From a virus, in the IMG/VR virus record IMGVR_UViG_3300010885_021802, positions 1-42,643 of that record: 42,643 nt of DNA. One strand, given 5' to 3'. This document shows, in pieces, positions 23,619 through 41,596 of the stretch; position 1 is the first letter of the stretch, and every line of letters starts with the position of its first letter. Made by a program: the position numbers and the translations under genes. The notes beneath the pieces are model-generated. The model searched no databases and had not been told where the DNA came from. It saw only the letters and a program-made list of their open reading frames with translations.

Positions 23619-25049
23619 TTATGAGTCTGCAAATACTTCCGGCTCGTAACTAGCGCGAGTCCTCGTTTCCATCGTATCACTGAACGTCAGGCAAAACGCA
23701 TCGGCAACGTCTGGTGACTGCGGATAGCGTTTTTTCAATTCATCCTTGGATTCTACCTTCAACTTGCCATTGCTCGTAAATGAGTATTTCGGCAGCGATA
23801 ATTCGGCTACCAGAACTTCGTCCTCAACCAAGTGGCAATTCTTCGCCTCTAACCACTTACGCGCCTTAAACCACAACTCGTCGCGCTGCCGCATATACAG
23901 GTCATCGACGCTCGCATTCTCGGCTACGTTCACCCCGCTCACCGGCAGACCCAACTCCTGCAACCTATCGACCACACCCGCTCCGATCCCAATTACGTCC
24001 ACGAATATCGTGACTGGCCTGTCGCTAGGCTTGGTATCCAGCCACTCGGCGTATATCCGCCCACTCGTTTGCATGGTGTCCGTACCAGACCATGACTTGT
24101 GCTTTTCCAGCGTAGCGTTTTGGCAGCGTTTAATCAGCACCGTCCTGTCGCGTCCGAACCGTGCAACGTCCACGCCCCACCGGATAACACCGTGATTTTC
24201 CACTTCCCGCGTCTGTGCGGCAAGACACAGTTCCAGCGGAATAACGCCATCGTCCTCAGATAACGGAAATTCTCCCGTCACCCGCACCTTGTAATAATTA
24301 CTCTCTTTCCCATACTGGAAAATAATCTCATCCCGAAACTGCTGGCTCTGCGTGGGGCAGTCCTCGCCATTGACCTGCATGGCGTGCCAGAGCGAACGCA
24401 ATTTATGATGGGTGTCGTAGAACATTCCCTCAAGCCGCGTAGGGTTAGAGGCAAATATCACATAAGCATTGTCAGCCGCCAACGATCCCCGCCCCGCCTC
24501 ATAGACCGCCTGATGCACGCCGCTCGCCTCGTCCACCAAAATCAAAACGTGCTTGGAGTGCAACCCCTGTAACGCTTCGGGCTTTTCCGCCCTTGCAGTC
24601 CGTGCCACCGCAAACGACTCAGCCGGAGCCTCAACCAAATCGAACTTATCGGACTTCCACTCAAACAACTCGCCAATCGCAGGCATTTTCACGCACAGCC
24701 TGCGATGCCACATACTCAACTCCGCCCACAGTACGTCCGACATCTGCGTACTCGTCGGGGCAGTACACCCAACCTTCGTCGGGAAGTGGCAGGTCATAAA
24801 CCACAGGATCGACCAGGAGAGGAACGCACTTTTACCAACGCGGTGACCGCTTCGTATGCTCAGGCGTTTCCTTGCTACCAACTCCCTACTCGCCTCCCAC
24901 TGCCACGGCAGCACGCCCTCTTTCCGCGCCTCGTTCCACTCCTTCGGCAACCCCAACGCATCCACCGCAAACAGCGCAGGCCCACCCGCACGCCAACGCT
25001 TTATCCGCGTTCGCGCTTCTTCGGATTCATTTTTCTGTGGATTCGCCAC
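23619..25049 (-). CDS. terL: Terminase large subunit
   Basis: The 476-residue protein pumps DNA into the head with ATP and cuts it. The ATPase domain has Walker A SGHRVGKS (67-74) and Walker B VLILVDE (168-174), with FASNPTR as the coupling segment (199-205). The nuclease domain shows the three acidic clusters of RNase H-like terminases: GVDVARFGRDRTV (D294), TIFVDVIGIGAG (D350) and SPDVADAF (D446/D449). It starts at a GTG and overlaps the small terminase gene by 23 bp. The P22-like head genes and circular map suggest headful packaging. Confidence 0.95.
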   Translation of the reverse strand: MANPQKNESEEARTRIKRWRAGGPALFAVDALGLPKEWNEARKEGVLPWQWEASRELVARKRLSIRSGHRVGKSAFLSWSILWFMTCHFPTKVGCTAPTSTQMSDVLWAELSMWHRRLCVKMPAIGELFEWKSDKFDLVEAPAESFAVARTARAEKPEALQGLHSKHVLILVDEASGVHQAVYEAGRGSLAADNAYVIFASNPTRLEGMFYDTHHKLRSLWHAMQVNGEDCPTQSQQFRDEIIFQYGKESNYYKVRVTGEFPLSEDDGVIPLELCLAAQTREVENHGVIRWGVDVARFGRDRTVLIKRCQNATLEKHKSWSGTDTMQTSGRIYAEWLDTKPSDRPVTIFVDVIGIGAGVVDRLQELGLPVSGVNVAENASVDDLYMRQRDELWFKARKWLEAKNCHLVEDEVLVAELSLPKYSFTSNGKLKVESKDELKKRYPQSPDVADAFCLTFSDTMETRTRASYEPEVFADS

Positions 25050-25668
25050 TCGACTCCTTGCCTGACTCGTCTTTCGTTGGCGTTACATCTATCGGCTCAG
25101 GCGGTTCCTCGCTATCCAGACCCGCCAGCATCGCAATCAGCCCCACACTCCCGCTAACCTCCACCTTCCGATTCTCCCCAAACCGACCACCCGCATACTT
25201 CGCCGCCACCTTAAACCGCGTGTCAATCCGCAACTTGTCCGTCTGTATCGTTTCGTTGTCAGCACTATCCGCTATCCCCACAACCTCCCCCACATACTCG
25301 TCAGCCATCCCCTCCTGCGCCCGATAATACCGATCGAGCCATTCCTTATTTTCACTCAAGAGCGCCCACACCAATCCCCTGTCCACCCCGTAATGCTCGC
25401 ACCACACCTTCAAACTAACCCCGCTCGCAACCTGGGCGCATAGCATGAATACCAAGTTTTCCTCTCCGCCACACTCCGCAATACGGTCATCCAAACTCTC
25501 GTAGTCGAGCATCAGCACGCTTGCCTTACGCGCCAATTTACTCGTCGGAGCCAGTCGACTCGCAACCGCCACCATCTCCCGCATCTGCTGGCGCACAGAC
25601 TTGATCGTACCGCGTACAGCAGCACGACTCTCGTCCATGTTTAAACCGCTCGGCATTACTTCATTCAT
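25027..25668 (-). CDS. terS: Terminase small subunit
   Basis: The 213-residue protein is the first gene of the late block. Residues 84-120 read VSLKVWCEHYGVDRGLVWALL...WLDRYYRAQEG, the HTH-plus-helix pattern of Sf6-type small terminases that bind the pac site. A helical oligomerisation part follows, then an acidic Pro/Glu/Ser tail. The first ATG has only a weak upstream GCGAG, so starts at 25656 or 25638 are possible. The control-region palindrome at 25676-25691 lies immediately upstream, so terminase and probably the whole late block may be under that regulator. Confidence 0.85.
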   Translation of the reverse strand: MNEVMPSGLNMDESRAAVRGTIKSVRQQMREMVAVASRLAPTSKLARKASVLMLDYESLDDRIAECGGEENLVFMLCAQVASGVSLKVWCEHYGVDRGLVWALLSENKEWLDRYYRAQEGMADEYVGEVVGIADSADNETIQTDKLRIDTRFKVAAKYAGGRFGENRKVEVSGSVGLIAMLAGLDSEEPPEPIDVTPTKDESGKESSGESTEK

Positions 25669-25675
25669 TGCTCGC

Positions 25676-25691
25676 GATAGTAGGCGCTAAC
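25676..25691. promoter_or_regulatory. Operator-like palindrome 1 (GATAGT-AGGC-GCTAAC)
   Basis: This matches the consensus GTTAGT-N4-ACTAAC with changes in both half-sites and shares the AGGC centre with site 2. Read on the minus strand, a possible promoter TTGCAA-17 bp-TACTAT for the late block ends here, the palindrome covering its -10. The promoter match is only 4 of 6 in each box. Confidence 0.5.
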
Positions 25692-25752
25692 TTATTATTT
25701 TGCAAATGTCTATATTTACGGAAATTTTTTTCGGGAAATTTTTGGCACTCAT

Positions 25753-25768
25753 GTTAGTAGGCACTAAC
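25753..25768. promoter_or_regulatory. Operator-like palindrome 2 (GTTAGT-AGGC-ACTAAC)
   Basis: This is a perfect 6-4-6 inverted repeat and the best copy of the set, 85 bp upstream of the small terminase start. The other sites differ from it mainly in the centre and at one or two arm positions. Confidence 0.7.
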
Positions 25769-25839
25769 TTGGGAATCTGGAAAATGTGGGCGGGGAGATA
25801 AAGAGGGTGGTACTGCAATCAGACCGGGGGTGGACTTGG

Positions 25840-25855
25840 GTTAGTGTGCGCTCAC
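25840..25855. promoter_or_regulatory. Operator-like palindrome 3 (GTTAGT-GTGC-GCTCAC), array member
   Basis: The left arm is perfect, and the right arm matches 4 of 6. It starts exactly 23 bp before palindrome 4, forming the first member of a three-site array. Confidence 0.5.
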
Positions 25856-25862
25856 TGACGGG

Positions 25863-25878
25863 GTGGGTACTCACTCAC
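25863..25878. promoter_or_regulatory. Operator-like palindrome 4 (GTGGGT-ACTC-ACTCAC), array member
   Basis: This middle member of the array fits GTnnGT-N4-ACTnAC and is also part of a wider near-perfect inverted repeat (GGTGGGT/ACTCACC). It lies 23 bp from both neighbours. Confidence 0.5.
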
Positions 25879-25885
25879 CTACCCA

Positions 25886-25901
25886 GTTAGCGCTCACTAA
25901 C
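25886..25901. promoter_or_regulatory. Operator-like palindrome 5 (GTTAGC-GCTC-ACTAAC), array member
   Basis: The right arm is perfect and the left arm matches 5 of 6. It is the third member of the 23-bp-spaced array, placing all three sites on nearly the same face of the helix (about 2.2 turns apart). Confidence 0.6.
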
Positions 25902-25963
25902 ATGGTCAATGGTGCAGCGCATCGTGTGGCGTAGGGGGCATATATGTTGCAAGGCACAAGTAT

Positions 25964-25992
25964 TTGACATAATGGCTATTCTAACATAAGCG
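25964..25992 (+). promoter_or_regulatory. Weak sigma70-like promoter candidate
   Basis: A perfect TTGACA at 25964-25969 is followed by TAACAT and ATAAGC at sub-optimal spacing; no good -10 lies at 16-18 bp. It could serve block B if helped by an activator, but the match may be chance. Confidence 0.25.
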
Positions 25993-26024
25993 TTGATTAT
26001 AAAGGGAATTCTGCCCTCTGATAC

Positions 26025-26040
26025 GTCAGCGACCACTAAC
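26025..26040. promoter_or_regulatory. Operator-like palindrome 6 (GTCAGC-GACC-ACTAAC)
   Basis: The right arm is perfect, and the left arm matches 4 of 6 with the same GTCAGC variant seen at 26951. It lies downstream of the weak TTGACA element. Confidence 0.5.
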
Positions 26041-26318
26041 GTGCGGGAATGCAACACTGGCGCGTCGATCCGCAGCTACCGGCCCGACTACGCCAAACCT
26101 GGAACATTGCCAGCCGATCCGCTTTCCGCTCGACATGCCGGAATGCTCGCCAAACCGCGTCAAAGGCGCCCAGCAAGGCAAACAGACTCCCGCGCATACC
26201 TGTATCCCGATTGCCCGACTAATCCCTTGCAAGCGCCGTTAAACCTGTTTGAGAATGACTCGCATCGCCATGTTGCGGCGCAATAGCCAAAGACTATGCA
26301 AACTATGTGGCTTTCCGC

Positions 26319-26397
26319 TCTAGTGTCAGGGGGGGGGGAAGTAGAGGGAAAACGGTAGTAAATATAGGCTTAATCAAAAAGTACTTGTGACACTAGA
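26319..26397. repeat. 10-bp inverted repeat enclosing a 10-base G tract
   Basis: TCTAGTGTCA (26319-26328) and TGACACTAGA (26388-26397) are perfect inverted copies 59 bp apart. The left copy is followed at once by ten G residues (26329-26338). The right copy is followed by GAAGAA/TTCTTC (26396-26418). The arrangement could be a protein-binding structure, an origin element or a recombination site; homopolymer length here may be wrong in the assembly. Confidence 0.6.
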
Positions 26398-26512
26398 AGA
26401 ACGGGTGACAGATTCTTCAGAGTCCGATGCGCGTTTTATTAGTCAATTTTCACATAGTCCGCAAATTGAATTGCTAATTGATGTGGTGTTAGAGCGAAAA
26501 AAACCGTATTGA
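26387..26512 (+). CDS. Possible 41-residue ORF in the control region
   Basis: A GTG-started frame reads VTLEERVTDSSESDARFISQ and ends VVLERKKPY-stop, with a composition like a real soluble helical protein. There is no ribosome-binding site before the GTG, and its first bases lie within the inverted repeat. It may be a gene remnant or chance. Confidence 0.2.
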   Translation: MTLEERVTDSSESDARFISQFSHSPQIELLIDVVLERKKPY

Positions 26513-26629
26513 ATGTGTCATGGTTTCATGTTGCGGGTGTTTCAGGGTAGTGATAACCTTGTGGTGTTTGTGTGGTGTATCTGTCGTGGTTTAACGGTGG
26601 TTTTTTTGACTATCTTAAGGAGTCTAAAA

Positions 26630-26950
26630 ATGAGCGAAAAGAATCGCAATCGTATTATCAGTGTTCGGGTTAGTCCTGGCGAAGTTGAGGCGATCAGGGT
26701 AAAGGCTGGCGAGTTTGCTTTAACTCCGGCTGTCTGGCTCAGGATGATTGCATTGCAGGCCGCGATTGTTCCCGTTGCGCCAGTAGCGGAAAAGCCTAAG
26801 ACTGAAGCGCAACTAAAAAAGGAAGCGGATCAACTTGTGGCTGAGGCGGACTATGCAGATCGCAAGGCTAAATCTGACGCGTGGCTAGCTAGCAGAGAGA
26901 AAGAGAAAGCTGACAAGGAAGCTGCAAGGCTAGAGGGTATGCGTAGATAG
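26630..26950 (+). CDS. Ribbon-helix-helix (MobC-like) DNA-binding protein
   Basis: The start at 26630 is chosen for its AAGGAG; the longer frame from 26513 has a hydrophobic, unlikely N-terminus. In the 106-residue product, residues 5-40 (NRIISVRVSPGEVEAIRVKAGEFALTPAVWLRMIAL) follow the strand-helix-helix pattern of MobC/Arc-type DNA-binding proteins. A charged coiled-coil tail rich in K, E and A follows. It is the first gene of block B, downstream of the palindrome array, and palindrome 7 begins right after its stop, so it is a fair candidate for the protein that binds the array and controls its own expression (inference). Confidence 0.65.
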   Translation: MSEKNRNRIISVRVSPGEVEAIRVKAGEFALTPAVWLRMIALQAAIVPVAPVAEKPKTEAQLKKEADQLVAEADYADRKAKSDAWLASREKEKADKEAARLEGMRR

Positions 26951-26966
26951 GTCAGCAAGCACTAAC
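26951..26966. promoter_or_regulatory. Operator-like palindrome 7 (GTCAGC-AAGC-ACTAAC)
   Basis: This member of the GTTAGT-N4-ACTAAC family has a perfect right arm. It begins at the base after the stop of the ribbon-helix-helix gene and leads into a second, different inverted repeat. Confidence 0.55.
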
Positions 26967-31962: not shown

Positions 31963-32175
31963 CTATTTATCAGCGTCTATCAGAGCAATCGCTTCGTCGG
32001 CGGTTATGTTGCGCGTCTTGGCAAGGCGCTGAAATTCATGGGCGAGCGCGTCATAGTGCAGGGATAGCGTTCCGGCACAAATCATCGCATCAGCGTATTT
32101 TTTCTCTCGCGTATAGGACAGCATGAGTTTGTGGCGCTCTGGAATCATCGCGGTTATTTCTGCATAATCAATCAT
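31963..32175 (-). CDS. Small helical protein, unknown
   Basis: A 70-residue helical protein (MIDYAEITAMIPERHKLMLS) with two cysteine-free helical halves (LHYDALAHEFQRLAKTRN and an acidic end). Its start overlaps the stop of the PP-loop gene by 4 bases (ATGA). No family is recognised. Confidence 0.5.
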   Translation of the reverse strand: MIDYAEITAMIPERHKLMLSYTREKKYADAMICAGTLSLHYDALAHEFQRLAKTRNITADEAIALIDADK

Positions 32176-32945
32176 ACTTGCGCCTCATCGTAGCATCCAC
32201 AGTCAATCTCTATCCGCGACTCATACGGAAACATATCAATCTGTGCTTCGTTCCATGCCAGCAAATCGCGCCATGCGAAATCACGGCCAAGCCCTTTTAC
32301 CGTATGCAGTTCGGCGTTGTTCTCCATCGCAACAGCACGCGCAGCAAGGTCTGGATAGTCGCGCTTGAGAGCCAGTATTTCCCCACGCTTGCTAGAGGGG
32401 CAGTAGAAACACGCACTTTTGCCAGCCGGTCTTAATCCGGCACGCTTAATTGCATCTACGCATTCCTCGCGCCCCCAATTCCATTCTATTAACGGGTAGC
32501 GGTACAGGTATTTATCATCCTCCGGTATCTTTGCTCGATGCGGCTCGTCCATGTCGTAACCTATTAGCTTTGTGACTTTCTGGCCTGACTTCCAAAAGTC
32601 TTTAGCCGGTTGCCAGTTGTTGCAATACTTATCCTGCGGATCACGCTTGTATTTCAGAGAGCAAGCCTTAAACCCGTAGGCAATGCTTGGCAACATCTTC
32701 CCGTCTAAGCAGTCCTGCTCAAGTGTTCGGACTTCACCCGCTCTGTTCGTGCGTTTAACCGTGATTATTTCAGGCATACCGTGTTTAACCAAGTAGCGGG
32801 AAAAGTCAGACACAAAAGAGTAAGTATCAGGACGTTCGCCGCCCGTATCGGCAAACAGAATCAAGTCGCACGTTTCCCCGCGCTCAACCATGCCGATCAG
32901 CATCGCTGTGGAGTTTGTGCCGCCGCCGTAGGAAACTACTATCAT
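32172..32945 (-). CDS. PP-loop ATPase, PAPS-reductase-like (copy 1)
   Basis: The 257-residue protein has an N-terminal PP-loop SYGGGTNST (5-13), the nucleotide-binding site that adenylates substrates in the PAPS reductase/DndC/ThiI superfamily. LILFADTGGERPDTY (28-42) follows, then CSLKYKR (C95), GY-DMDEPHR (129-136), and a CxxC at C179/C182 with RGE after it. One cysteine plus a CxxC may hold a metal or Fe-S cluster. It is unlikely to make sulfite for the host. Modification or thiolation of nucleic acid is the more usual guess for phage members; the substrate is unknown. Confidence 0.8.
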   Translation of the reverse strand: MIVVSYGGGTNSTAMLIGMVERGETCDLILFADTGGERPDTYSFVSDFSRYLVKHGMPEIITVKRTNRAGEVRTLEQDCLDGKMLPSIAYGFKACSLKYKRDPQDKYCNNWQPAKDFWKSGQKVTKLIGYDMDEPHRAKIPEDDKYLYRYPLIEWNWGREECVDAIKRAGLRPAGKSACFYCPSSKRGEILALKRDYPDLAARAVAMENNAELHTVKGLGRDFAWRDLLAWNEAQIDMFPYESRIEIDCGCYDEAQV

Positions 32946-33130: not shown

Positions 33131-33341
33131 TGCTGCATCCCTGTATCTGCGGCGCGAGTGACGGAACCTTGCGGAATTCCTCGCAGCGTTTAAGTTGGTC
33201 ATTCATGGCTTGCGGCGGAACGTATGTCTTCCACGATTGCATGACTCCGCTGAAATCCTTTTTCCGCAGCAATTGTTCCTCAATAGCCTTCGCATACTCA
33301 TGGAAATGCGTTACGCCTGTCTTGCCGGATTTGGTTTTCAT
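33120..33341 (-). CDS. Small basic protein between PP-loop genes, unknown
   Basis: A 73-residue protein (MKTKSGKTGVTHFHEYAKAI) with basic helices and a Pro/Gln-rich end. It overlaps both neighbours, so it is in one translational unit with the PP-loop genes. No family is recognised. Confidence 0.45.
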   Translation of the reverse strand: MKTKSGKTGVTHFHEYAKAIEEQLLRKKDFSGVMQSWKTYVPPQAMNDQLKRCEEFRKVPSLAPQIQGCSNGE

Positions 33342-34096
33342 GCTTCCCCCTTCTCGGTTAAAAATTCTGACTCTGCCAATTCACAAAATATGCCGCACTG
33401 AATTTCAGGCTCATCTTGATACCGGCCTATTCCTACAGGCAATTCGTCTAGGAAAATACGCTTGCCAGAATCGCGCACCATACGCACGCCTAACGCCCTT
33501 GATGTTTCTGCCATGCGCGTAAATTGCACAGGGAAATCAATACGCATTTTATTGAAATATCCTGCACCTGTAGCCTTAACGCACATGATGCAATTGTTAT
33601 GCTGATAGCCCAACTTATACATTACGGGCAACTCTATCCCTGCGTTCTGTATCATCGCCAAGCAATCCTTATGCTGCAAGCTAGATTCAATCAGTGGCGC
33701 AATGGCATCAATGTTATTGGCATCCAAAAATCTATCCCATCTATCTTGTTCCTCTGAACAGTAGCCAAAAATGTGCCTATCGTTAGGCAACTGAAATTCC
33801 TCGCGTACACGCTTCTTTAATTCCATCGTGCAAGGCGCACCGGCAATGCCGCTGATGTATTTGCGCTGGCGTATAACCTCGTACACGCTCCCGTCATACT
33901 TTTCAGCAATCAGGTTGGTAATGGGCTTGCCAAACCATTTCTCGCAGTCAGTCGCAAAACGGTCATTATCAGGGTGTTCCTCGCGCACAATACAGCGAGC
34001 GATAACCATATCTGGATATTGCTTTAGCGCAATCTTAGTTGCAACTGCACTTGCAGCGCCGCAACTAAACCATGATACGACTCGCATTAGCCGCAC
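33338..34096 (-). CDS. PP-loop ATPase, PAPS-reductase-like (copy 2)
   Basis: The 252-residue protein has the PP-loop variant SWFSCGAASAVATKIAL (8-24), followed by VIARCIVREEHPDNDRF. It shares the spaced pattern of copy 1: a cysteine before a helix (C89, GAPCTMELKK), GY-CSEEQDR (111-119) and a CxxC about 80 residues later (C169/C172). A second ATG at 34087 is an equally good start. The two copies look like diverged paralogues on one transcript. The VRR-NUC gene directly upstream overlaps it by 10 bp. Confidence 0.78.
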   Translation of the reverse strand: MRLMRVVSWFSCGAASAVATKIALKQYPDMVIARCIVREEHPDNDRFATDCEKWFGKPITNLIAEKYDGSVYEVIRQRKYISGIAGAPCTMELKKRVREEFQLPNDRHIFGYCSEEQDRWDRFLDANNIDAIAPLIESSLQHKDCLAMIQNAGIELPVMYKLGYQHNNCIMCVKATGAGYFNKMRIDFPVQFTRMAETSRALGVRMVRDSGKRIFLDELPVGIGRYQDEPEIQCGIFCELAESEFLTEKGEA

Positions 34097-34601: not shown

Positions 34602-34617
34602 GTTAGTGGTTACTTAC
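34602..34617. promoter_or_regulatory. Possible outlying operator-like palindrome (GTTAGT-GGTT-ACTTAC)
   Basis: It matches the control-region consensus in the left arm and 5 of 6 in the right. It spans the stop of the HTH gene, just before the VRR-NUC gene. A chance match is possible, since the motif is short. Confidence 0.3.
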
Positions 34618-34771
34618 GCGCATTCTCAATCTGGCTAAGACGCTGGCGAGATATGCCTAGCTTTTTAGCTATGTCCTTGCGTTCCATGCCAGAAGCAAGC
34701 ATCGCGTGCGCCCGTTCCCGTTTCTTACGCCAGATTGCTAACTGTTTTGTGTAGTCCATGCCCTGCACCAT
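34610..34771 (-). CDS. Small HTH regulator
   Basis: The start at 34771 is chosen because AAGGGG lies 3 bases upstream of its ATG. In the 53-residue product, residues 20-50 (RAHAMLASGMERKDIAKKLGISRQRLSQIENARK) are a clear HTH of the Xre or sigma-like type with recognition helix SRQRLSQIE. It is the first gene of block C and faces block D across a 106-bp gap. The reading frame is so small that it contains little else. It is a candidate for control of the divergent promoters. Confidence 0.68.
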   Translation of the reverse strand: MVQGMDYTKQLAIWRKKRERAHAMLASGMERKDIAKKLGISRQRLSQIENARK

Positions 34772-34877
34772 AAACCCCTTAACGGCTCCCGTCAAATAAA
34801 TATTTCATTAACCCCTTGACAGCCGATATTCACTAGGCGCACCATGCGTCATCAACAACCAAACAGGGGAATCAAAG

Positions 34878-38298: not shown

Positions 38299-38456
38299 AG
38301 CCCACCGACCCTCCCCGCTGCCCGATATGTCAAGTGCCGAAGCCTTTTACAGCCGTATGGTGCTGCTATGCCGGAAAGGGATGCACTGAAACTGACCAGC
38401 GGCATCCTAACGAGGAAACTCGCAACATAATCGAAGGAAAGGCACTAAACGAATGA
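38295..38456 (+). CDS. Very small zinc-finger-like protein
   Basis: A 53-residue frame (MKPTDPPRCPICQVPKPFTA) with CPIC, then CC and a further C (VWCCYAGKGC), which could bind zinc. Both ends overlap neighbouring genes in the ATGA manner, so it is co-translated with the exonuclease partner and the aminotransferase-fold gene. Confidence 0.55.
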   Translation: MKPTDPPRCPICQVPKPFTAVWCCYAGKGCTETDQRHPNEETRNIIEGKALNE

Positions 38457-39673
38457 GAGTACCCGCATCAGGCGCAGTCATTGGCCTAGCAGAGAAAAAA
38501 GCGATGCACGATGCCGTTGATGCTGGATGGCTGACTGCGGGGCCGATTAACGCGGCATTTGAGGCGAAATTATCCGCATTCACCGGAATACGCCATGTCA
38601 GGACTTGTAACAGCGGATCGTCGGCAAACTTACTCGCCGTAGCCGCAATGGTCGCATCAGGCAGATGGAAGGCTGGCGACGAGATTATTACGTCAGCGGT
38701 AGGCTTTCCGACTACGGTTAATCCGTTGCTTCTCTATGGGCTTGTGCCGGTGTTTGTTGATGTGGAGTTGGGGACGTATAACCCGACGATGTTTAAGATT
38801 GAGGCGGCTATTACTGCTAAAACAACCGGATTGATGATGGCGCATACACTTGGGAATTCGTTTGCTCCTGCAATTAACTGCAAGTTAGAAACTAAAGGTA
38901 TCTACGTTGTAGAGGATTGCTGCGATGCGCTAGGTTCTATGCACCACCTTAAAAGTGACTTCGGGAAAAATAATCATCATTGTCACGTTGGCGTTGGCGC
39001 TGCAATAGCCACCTTCTCATTTTTCCCCGCGCACCACATAACGACAGGCGAGGGCGGCGCAGTAATGACGCAGGATGCCGACCTGTTACGCCATATCGAA
39101 GCCCTGCGCGATTGGGGCAGAGATTGCTGGTGTGCGCCAGGACAAAATAACACTTGCGGTAAGCGTTTTGACCAACAATTTGGGGAGTTACCTTATGGGT
39201 TCGATCACAAATACTGCTTTAGCCATGCAGGGTTCAATCTCAAGATTACCGAAATACAAGCAGCTTGTGGCATTGCACAATTTGACCGTCTTAGCGGTTT
39301 CATTGAAAAGCGTTGCTCCAATTTTGATTATCTCTACAAAAGATTGTCAGAAGGAAAAGCGGAAGATAGTTTTATTTTGCCGCGCTTTTCGAAAGGTGTT
39401 TCCCCGTTCGGCTTCCCTATCACCATCAAAAAAGAAGGCGAAAGGCTCGCGCTTACGTCCTACCTCGCAGAAAAAGGCATCGACACGCGCCTAATCTTCG
39501 GCGGCAACCTGACCAAGCAGCCGTACATGAAAGGTCGTAACTTTCGCATAGCCGAACCGCTAATCAACGCCGACAAGGTTATGAACGATACGTTCTGGAT
39601 TGGCGTATGGCCTGGATTGTCGGAGGATGACTTGGCGTATGCGTGCGATACGATAGAGGAATTTTTCGCATGA
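38453..39673 (+). CDS. rfbH-like: RfbH/DdhC-like CDP-4-keto-6-deoxyglucose 3-dehydrase (Fe-S, PMP-dependent)
   Basis: The 406-residue protein has the DegT/DnrJ/EryC1 aminotransferase fold. In SFFPAHHITTGEGGAV the PLP-binding lysine is replaced by His (H194), the hallmark of the E1 3-dehydrase that removes the C3 hydroxyl of CDP-4-keto-6-deoxyglucose. The four [2Fe-2S] cysteines expected for E1 are present: C157 (EDCCDAL), C225 and C227 (RDCWC), and C235 (NTCGKR). A His-rich insertion (about 164-178) is unusual. The reductase partner and the enzymes making the substrate are not in this genome, so the host must supply them. Confidence 0.88.
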   Translation: MRVPASGAVIGLAEKKAMHDAVDAGWLTAGPINAAFEAKLSAFTGIRHVRTCNSGSSANLLAVAAMVASGRWKAGDEIITSAVGFPTTVNPLLLYGLVPVFVDVELGTYNPTMFKIEAAITAKTTGLMMAHTLGNSFAPAINCKLETKGIYVVEDCCDALGSMHHLKSDFGKNNHHCHVGVGAAIATFSFFPAHHITTGEGGAVMTQDADLLRHIEALRDWGRDCWCAPGQNNTCGKRFDQQFGELPYGFDHKYCFSHAGFNLKITEIQAACGIAQFDRLSGFIEKRCSNFDYLYKRLSEGKAEDSFILPRFSKGVSPFGFPITIKKEGERLALTSYLAEKGIDTRLIFGGNLTKQPYMKGRNFRIAEPLINADKVMNDTFWIGVWPGLSEDDLAYACDTIEEFFA

Positions 39674-40248
39674 CAGCCGAAGAACTAATCGCTTTCGAGC
39701 AAGACATATTCCGCGAGTTTGAAGCGGGGCATATTCGTGGGCCGATACATTTGTCAGGAGGCAACGAGCAGCAACTAATCGACATTTTTAAGCGCATCAA
39801 GCGCACCGATTGGGTATTTTCAACATGGCGCAATCACTATCACGCCCTACTGCATGGCGTTCCAAAAGGTAAATTGCGCGATGAAATACTTGCTGGCAGG
39901 AACATGAATTTTTCCAGCAAGGAACACAACTTTTTTACGTCTGCAATCGTTGGTGGCACGCTGTCGATTGCCTGCGGAGTCGCCTATGCGCTGCGAGATA
40001 CGGGGCATCATGTATGGTGCTTCGTGGGCGACATGGCGGCAAGTACCGGCGCATTTTGGGAGGCTGATTCGTTCAGTTTTCTCAATGACCTGCCGATTAC
40101 GTTTGTGGTTGAGGATAACCGATTCTCTGCGGATAGCCCTACCGACGAGTGTTGGGGAGATAACCCATCCGAGCGAAAGGTGATTACCTACGCCTATGAG
40201 CGCACCCTGCCGCACGCTGGCATTGGCAAATGGGTGTCATTCAAATGA
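39670..40248 (+). CDS. Thiamine-diphosphate enzyme, miniature E1-alpha-like subunit
   Basis: The 192-residue protein (overlap of 4 bases upstream) resembles the thiamine-diphosphate-binding domain of dehydrogenase E1-alpha and transketolase. WVFSTWRNHYHALLHGVP matches the RdHG region. GGTLSIACGVAYAL is followed by the cofactor motif starting GDM at 120-122 and ending DN at 149-150, a degenerate GDG...NN with the usual spacing. Full E1-alpha proteins are about 350 residues, so this is a minimal PP-type domain. Together with the next gene it could form an enzyme adding a two-carbon unit to a keto sugar, as in branched sugar pathways (inference). Confidence 0.75.
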   Translation: MTAEELIAFEQDIFREFEAGHIRGPIHLSGGNEQQLIDIFKRIKRTDWVFSTWRNHYHALLHGVPKGKLRDEILAGRNMNFSSKEHNFFTSAIVGGTLSIACGVAYALRDTGHHVWCFVGDMAASTGAFWEADSFSFLNDLPITFVVEDNRFSADSPTDECWGDNPSERKVITYAYERTLPHAGIGKWVSFK

Positions 40249-40763
40249 CCTACCTAACCGCAATCCAGCGCGAAATGAAGCGGCTATCCGAGGATAAGCG
40301 CACCCTCTTTGTAGGTCAGGCTGTCGAGTATCCAGGCCAAGCGATGCACGCAACGCTCAAAGACGTACCGATGGAAAAGCGTCTAGAAATGCCGGTTATC
40401 GAAAACTTCCAAATGGGATTTTGTACCGGACTGGCTTTGCAGGGATACATCCCTATCTGCATATTCCCGCGTTTTGATTTTCTGATATGCGCTACTGACC
40501 AGCTAGTCAACCACTTAGACAAGATACCGGCAATGACCGATTGGCGTCCAAAGGTGATTATCCGCACATCAGTCGGCGCAGTATCGCCGCTGAATCCAGG
40601 GCCGCAGCATTGCCAGAATCACTTTTTTGCCATGCACGAAATGTTGCAAAATATCAGAATTTATCAAGCCAAAAGCGAATCTGATATACCTATTATTTAT
40701 GAGAAGGCGATGGAATTTGATGGCTCCACTTTAATTATTGAGCATGGGGAGAAATATCTGTGA
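40245..40763 (+). CDS. Thiamine-diphosphate enzyme, miniature E1-beta-like subunit
   Basis: The 172-residue protein corresponds to the pyrimidine-binding domain of E1-beta or transketolase. LEMPVIENFQMGFCTGLALQG contains the catalytic glutamate E53, followed by PRFDFLICATDQLVNHLDKI as in E1-beta proteins. The transketolase C-terminal domain is missing, so only the cofactor-binding domain is kept. The 4-base overlaps with both neighbours suggest equal production with the alpha-like subunit. Split enzymes of similar size (such as the sulfopyruvate decarboxylase type) are an alternative comparison. Confidence 0.75.
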   Translation: MTYLTAIQREMKRLSEDKRTLFVGQAVEYPGQAMHATLKDVPMEKRLEMPVIENFQMGFCTGLALQGYIPICIFPRFDFLICATDQLVNHLDKIPAMTDWRPKVIIRTSVGAVSPLNPGPQHCQNHFFAMHEMLQNIRIYQAKSESDIPIIYEKAMEFDGSTLIIEHGEKYL

Positions 40764-41596
40764 AGTCGTATTTCATAACAGGCGGTACAGGCTTTATCGG
40801 CAGGGAATTGGTACGCCAGTTAGTCAAGCGCGACGATACCGGCCTGATAACGTGCCTGACGCGGGGGCATCGCAAGTATTCGGAACTGCTGCAAGCCGAG
40901 AAGGTGCTGTACCGGATTGGCGATGTTACCGAGTGCGAATTCCCTGATTACGCCTACACAGACGTAATTCACGGCGCAAATGAAGTAAATGACCTCCTAC
41001 AGCCTGACCTGCCCAAGTATTATTACACGATTGTCGAGGGTAGCAACAGGGTATTGGATTGGGCGTCTAGGAAGGGCTATAACACGCTTCTGCTGTCATC
41101 TGGCGCTGCTGACAGGGATACTGTCTATGGACGGGCAAAACGGCAGAGCGAGTTTCTAGCGCGTCATTACGGCGGCGTCAAGATAGCCCGTATCTTTTCC
41201 GTTTTGGGCAACGAAATGCCGCTGAATGGGCAGTATGCGGCGGGGAAGTTTATCCACATGGCGATGCAGGGAAAGGTGTCTGTCTATGGCGGGGATTCGA
41301 TGCGCTCGTATTTGCACGTTGAGGACTGTGCGCGGGGGTTGCTGCGGATATTGGAAGCGGGTCAGCCGCTAAAGCCCTATGACGTAGCTGGAAACCAGCC
41401 AATCTCTATTCGTAACCTTGCAGAGCGCATTGCCATTGAATTTGAAGTTCCATGCGAGTACACGACTGCCCATAGCCGTAAAGATACATACGTTCCAGAC
41501 CTACGCGCAATCGAATCATTAGGCTTCAAGCAAACATTTTCTCTAAACCGTACCTTGGAGGTAGTCTGTGATTTCATTCGTCATTCCAACAAATAA
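40760..41596 (+). CDS. NAD-dependent epimerase/dehydratase or 4-reductase of sugar nucleotides
   Basis: The 278-residue protein (GTG start) is an extended short-chain dehydrogenase with GGTGFIG (8-14) and catalytic residues in SSGAAD (113-118) and YGRAK (Y123, K127). LHVEDCARGLLRIL at about 185-198 is typical of NDP-sugar epimerases. In pathways using RfbH, such an enzyme reduces the C4 keto group (abequose, paratose or tyvelose branch) or processes a branched product. The exact reaction cannot be read from sequence alone. It overlaps the glycosyltransferase gene by 29 bp. Confidence 0.85.
   Translation: MKSYFITGGTGFIGRELVRQLVKRDDTGLITCLTRGHRKYSELLQAEKVLYRIGDVTECEFPDYAYTDVIHGANEVNDLLQPDLPKYYYTIVEGSNRVLDWASRKGYNTLLLSSGAADRDTVYGRAKRQSEFLARHYGGVKIARIFSVLGNEMPLNGQYAAGKFIHMAMQGKVSVYGGDSMRSYLHVEDCARGLLRILEAGQPLKPYDVAGNQPISIRNLAERIAIEFEVPCEYTTAHSRKDTYVPDLRAIESLGFKQTFSLNRTLEVVCDFIRHSNK

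Follow-up and report, generated by a model that had tools for sequence, protein, structure and literature searches.

The window (i.e. the whole 42,643-nucleotide stretch of IMG/VR record IMGVR_UViG_3300010885_021802) is an environmental contig in which a leftward late gene block starts with terS, encoding an Sf6-like terminase small subunit on the minus strand (25027..25668; PHROG 1482, E=6e-15; PF20901, E=6e-16). A plus-strand gene for a NikA-like ribbon-helix-helix (RHH) protein (26630..26950; PF21983, E=8e-7) diverges from terS, and the intergenic region between them (25669-26629) holds most members of an array of palindromic sites located immediately 5' of terS, confirming an earlier sequence-only reading that had placed the cluster at the boundary of the late and early genes. 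A small HTH protein of HTH_3/KorA-like type is encoded further along on the minus strand (34610..34795; PF01381, E=2e-6; PF16509, E=4e-6). Elsewhere in the window, positions 32172-32945 match phage PAPS-reductase-like families (PHROG 424, E=2.5e-33), the neighbouring gene at 33338-34096 has no significant Pfam match, and positions 38453-41596 read from sequence as a sugar-metabolism-like run (i.e. a DegT-type aminotransferase, transketolase-like halves and an NAD-dependent epimerase). Searches of GenBank phages for DNA relatives of the window, and of viral contigs for close relatives of its TerS or RHH protein, returned none.

Sites were scored by mismatches to GTTAGT-N4-ACTAAC, and none was assigned a strand. 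The SlmA-binding-site-like (SBS-like) site closest to terS, GATAGTAGGCGCTAAC (25676..25691; 2 mismatches), starts 8 bp upstream of the start codon and can alternatively be read at 25680 as GTAGGCGCTAAC with a spacer of 0. A perfect 16-mer, GTTAGTAGGCACTAAC (25753..25768; 0 mismatches), is followed by the best SBS-like site, the 20-mer GTTAGTGTGCGCTCACTGAC (25840..25859; 2 mismatches), which contains spacers of 4 and 8. Further sites are GTGGGTACTCACTCAC (25863..25878), a weak 16-mer with 3 mismatches, GTTAGCGCTCACTAAC (25886..25901; 1 mismatch; spacers 0 and 4), GTCAGCGACCACTAAC (26025..26040; 2 mismatches) and GTCAGCAAGCACTAAC (26951..26966; 2 mismatches), the last directly after the stop codon of the RHH gene. 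An isolated site, GTTAGTGGTTACTTAC (34602..34617; 1 mismatch), overlaps the stop codon of the HTH gene. The coordinates of all six sites listed in the sequence-only reading were correct and five of these sites were confirmed, the exception being the weak site at 25863; the seventh site that it reported at 26951 was also found, and the site at 34602 was absent from its list. The starts at 25840, 25863 and 25886 are indeed spaced by 23 bp, as had been stated, but the middle member is poor as a 16-mer and is better read as GTGGGTACTCAC. Common arms were also correctly described, but the supposedly shared 4-bp centre varies in sequence and follows the pattern R-N-N-Y.

Two or fewer mismatches were found at exactly seven places in the whole record (i.e. 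25676, 25753, 25840, 25886, 26025, 26951 and 34602). A scan of the whole window with degenerate arms (GTNAGYRNNYRCTNAC) detected six sites (25753, 25840, 25886, 26025, 26951 and 34602) as compared to 0.039 expected, and none of 1000 dinucleotide-shuffled sequences gave more than 2. The sites are thus far more numerous than chance would give, in support of the earlier reading of them as protein-binding palindromes.

Similar arrays were present in many other phages. A motif-pair scan of IMG/VR recovered at least 120 stretches with site pairs as compared to 2 for the mirror-image pattern, and the degenerate pattern was present in 30 whole records, mostly as one compact array, with the reversed control being absent from all 30. 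At least eight unrelated phage lineages had arrays with a spacing of 23-34 bp immediately 5' of their terminase genes, the median distance upstream of terS being 138 bp (43 loci measured). The terminase at about 40 array loci was approximately 30% identical to that of the window; the others belonged to PHROG families 1482, 51, 979/2 and 36964/15 or to several TerS types without a family. Arrays contained up to 11 sites and did not in every case occupy the largest intergenic gap. Phages with a TerL 71-81% identical to that of array phages were without an array, and none was found in the stretches read of the terminase relatives DSL-LC05 and MW202483; this absence from close terminase relatives indicates that the array is not essential to those lineages. 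BLAST against GenBank phages, which is weak for short repeats and whose low-complexity filter may hide matches, did not reveal such an array in any isolated reference phage; the matches obtained were rejected as chance-level stretches, one of them inside a Vibrio phage gene.

Comparison of the array-carrying phages revealed no protein common to all and no DNA-binding protein shared among the lineages, and a shared HTH or RHH binder was consequently rejected, no such protein being conserved. The RHH and HTH proteins of the window had no detectable relative in other array-carrying phages. TetR_N or other TetR-type domains were found in 0 of 31 array records by a search that did find the domain in a bacterial genome added as a positive control, and no SlmA homologue was present in the 8 searched. 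The lack of a common phage protein together with the lack of TetR-type domains makes a host protein the simplest binder.

The architecture of the sites was compared with that of sites for the host protein SlmA. The published E. coli SlmA consensus, GTAAGTGAGCGCTCACTTAC, consists of GTNA/TNAC half-sites on a 4-bp lattice, an architecture shared by the published sites SBScons (AAGTAAGTGAGCGCTCACTTACGT) and SBS17 (TCAACGTTAGTGACCATTTACTTACTTTTG) (PMC4423959), and a 12-bp SlmA core motif, GTGAGTACTCAC, has also been described (PMC3116907). Arms of the form GTNAGY-N(k)-RCTNAC were counted in 80 arrays for spacers of 0 to 11 and occurred 162 times at k=0, 487 times at k=4 and 132 times at k=8 but never at any other spacer; these three counts are not independent because one 20-mer gives all three, and SBScons itself contains all three forms. 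A lattice, with spacer-0 and/or spacer-8 forms beside spacer 4, was detected in eight lineages, and the GTNAGT/ACTNAC half-site lattice of SlmA-binding sites was found both in the arrays and at window position 25840. Among TetR-like operator pairs in bacterial genomes, 246 had k=4 as compared to 5 and 9 for k=0 and k=8, respectively; as these pairs are almost all of spacer 4, the 0/4/8 lattice separates SlmA sites from those of TetR-type proteins in general.

Against the 20-bp consensus, a best identity of at least 15/20 was reached by 66 of the 80 arrays and by 9 of 2672 same-length control segments. The window site at 25840 matched at 17/20 whilst 400 simulated windows did not exceed 16. The other window sites matched at 13-15/20, within the range of the simulated windows, making the window a weaker case than most arrays, and the site at 25863 contains GTGGGTACTCAC, which is one base off the 12-bp motif. 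The perfect consensus GTNAGTGAGCGCTCACTNAC occurred in 26 viral stretches, many of these occurrences being in arrays. The phage arrays are dominated by the 16-mer form, in contrast to the 20-mer consensus of E. coli. As a sequence identification, the assignment of the array as SlmA-binding-site-like is strong.

The same motif was examined in bacteria. SlmA orthologues were detected in 100 of 398 Pseudomonadota genomes, and the recognition helix was near-invariant among 15 sequences compared. Counts of the 16-mer as compared to its reversed control were 60 versus 25 in slmA+ genomes and 7 versus 12 in slmA- genomes (Fisher p=0.008), and the 20-mer was also enriched in the former (21/14 versus 0/11; p=4e-4). 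The 39 sites in four slmA+ genomes all lay further than 10% of genome length from the terminus, whereas 7.8 would have been expected within that distance; the terminus was inferred from dnaA and the 10% threshold was picked post hoc (KS test p=0.019). The motif is thus enriched in slmA+ genomes and avoids the terminus, the effect being moderate. No enrichment of the 16-mer was observed in four small genomes (1.7-2.1 Mb) with a more divergent SlmA.

Sites for other host proteins were sought within approximately 300 bp of the arrays at 60 dereplicated loci. Exact DnaA boxes (11 versus 0.35 expected), NtrC-type GCACC-N5-GGTGC palindromes (11 versus 0.05) and Fur-type cores (8 versus 0) were over-represented, and parS was enriched, at two loci. 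As these are also sites of host proteins, their presence supports binding of the array by a host protein. None of the four was found near the array of the window, no matS, CRP or FNR sites were found near arrays, and an apparent enrichment of LexA sites was lost in the strict dereplicated test. Individual contigs displayed these elements in several arrangements. In the phage contigs L313, L323 and L326, an SlmA-like array directly adjoins a perfect ParB site, parS TGTTTCACGTGAAACA; a copy with one mismatch is present in L319, and the permuted palindrome GTGAAACATGTTTCAC in L311 and L329. NtrC-type palindromes (TGCACC-N5-GGTGCA) lie beside SlmA-like sites in L085, L123, L307, L309 and L314, alternating with them in L085 and L123 at a period of about 40 bp in four or five copies, and Fur-box-like sequences lie beside SlmA-like arrays in L321, L123 and L066.

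The sequence-only reading had interpreted the cluster as the phage's own switch, with operators through which the RHH or HTH protein would switch early/late transcription. Both proteins are of DNA-binding types, sites adjoin both genes (26951 and 34602) and lie in the divergent intergenic region, and the KorA operator, GTTTAGCTAAAC, has arms loosely similar to those of the window sites. RHH proteins usually target short direct or inverted repeats, layouts other than a 0/4/8 lattice, and the same motif and lattice occur in array phages without detectable relatives of either protein; on this reading the match to the SlmA consensus would be a coincidence. With no TetR-type protein encoded in any of the 31 array records and a lattice that instead matches the host SlmA site, the claim of a phage-owned switch was not sustained and we regard a phage-encoded repressor as quite improbable. 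The KorA (TrfB) operator was rejected separately, as GTTTAGCTAAAC had no match with one or fewer mismatches in the window and the HTH protein was only a marginal KorA match. It is also unlikely, if slightly less so, that the sites are operators for another TetR-family regulator of the host that tunes phage transcription to host physiology. GTTAGY-N4-RCTAAC pairs are common at bacterial promoters, for example between TTGACA and TATAAT, and NtrC-, Fur-, DnaA- and ParB-like sites near some arrays would suit such a role, but spacer-0 and spacer-8 forms are almost missing from the bacterial pairs, whose main arm is GTTAGC...GCTAAC, and phage arrays with as many as 11 sites exceed the usual operator. 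The bacterial GTTAGC-N4-GCTAAC promoter pairs were accordingly set aside as ordinary TetR-like operators rather than SBS; this operator lies between TTGACA and TATAAT in many Clostridia (L131, L168, L239, L179 and others), where it probably serves an uncharacterised TetR regulator. Low-GC 'group B' contigs with GTTAGTYNNRACTAAC pairs were likewise excluded as a different system, having no spacer-0 form and dispersed sites. Such dispersed pairs, a second motif family, were observed in L036, L039, L062, L082, L023 and similar low-GC contigs of up to about 180 kb, with several directly following TATAAT-like boxes; many group B contigs have rumen-type sample identifiers.

A packaging signal (cos/pac) or a replication origin, read by TerS or an initiator in the manner of the lambda cosB R sites or ori iterons, appears very unlikely. 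The array adjoins terS in unrelated phages, its dyad sites are repeated, GC skew changes sign at the window array and exact DnaA boxes are enriched near the arrays of other phages. The TerS proteins beside the arrays, however, belong to different families with different putative reading helices whilst the motif is constant, and phages with closely related TerL lack the array. The array of the window has no DnaA box nearby, and the skew change also follows from divergent transcription. Conservation of a cognate initiator or TerS with the sites, as for lambda-type ori iterons or cosB, was not observed.

The cluster is probably a phage-borne array of binding sites for host SlmA, which it would use to block division and/or gate the adjacent late operon. 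Binding of SlmA to the array, taken by itself, is likely. SlmA exerts its effect from DNA, as a functional 4:1 SlmA:SBS complex, and an E. coli cell contains 300-400 copies (PMC4423959). When two SBS are present on a multicopy plasmid and SlmA is raised about fourfold, division is blocked in a lethal, SlmA-dependent manner (PMC3573117, PMC4117426). Dimers of this TetR-family nucleoid-occlusion protein of the host pair on a 4-bp lattice of GTNA/TNAC half-sites and, once bound to DNA, antagonise FtsZ polymers. In the proposed mechanism, the replicating phage genome would become the equivalent of a multicopy SlmA-site plasmid on which host SlmA would collect, and the resulting complexes would hold off septation during infection. 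With approximately seven sites and four SlmA each, about 11-14 phage genomes would by our arithmetic absorb the SlmA pool. Given its position next to the late operon, the array may also let SlmA cover the late promoter region early in infection, with rising genome copies diluting SlmA off it and so providing a copy-number gate for the late genes. These two outcomes would be non-exclusive. A division block may be the main benefit of the array, on odds that we put at somewhat below even, whilst a late-gene gate is a more tentative proposal; the invariable placement of the array 5' of the terminase points to some effect in cis. More doubtful still is a broader model in which many unrelated environmental phages, with no protein of their own, would offer host DNA-binding proteins a 'landing strip' beside the terminase, with SlmA arrays in most and DnaA boxes, NtrC, Fur or parS sites in some, such that SlmA stops division and its titration by genome copies times the late genes.

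The occurrence of the same type of array at the same place in many unrelated phages suggests that phages recruit the division brake of the host by DNA alone. If true, phages would block or sense host division solely by displaying sites for a nucleoid-occlusion factor, which would explain a recurrent noncoding element of many uncultured phages, tie phage infection to cell-cycle control and provide a host hint (i.e. slmA+ Proteobacteria) for phages without a known host. A literature search found no published report of SlmA arrays in phages, and the closest known systems are similar in part. Chromosomal SBS of E. coli and Vibrio have the same GTNA/TNAC half-sites, 4-bp lattice and consensus (GTAAGTGAGCGCTCACTTAC). 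They are bound by an SlmA dimer of dimers and are scattered (24-52 sites in E. coli; PMC4423959), for the most part within coding DNA (PMC3116907), whereas the phage sites are tandem, intergenic, next to terminase genes and dominated by the 16-mer form. The tandem-SBS plasmids pHC534 and p2SBSK, like the phage array, place several SBS on a multicopy replicon, and in their presence SlmA is delocalised and Z rings fail to form (PMC3573117, PMC4117426); they are artificial laboratory constructs used with mild SlmA overproduction, whereas the phage arrays are natural. Lambda Kil (PMC3961180) and T7 Gp0.4 inhibit FtsZ and resemble the array in the proposed halt of host division during infection, but both are proteins whereas the array consists of DNA alone and would rely on an inhibitor that the host itself supplies. 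At V. cholerae chb, where SlmA is an activator, an SBS upstream of a promoter affects transcription (PMC5519180), as would the array in gating late genes, but chb has a single chromosomal site at 167 bp from the start site, unlike the phage array.
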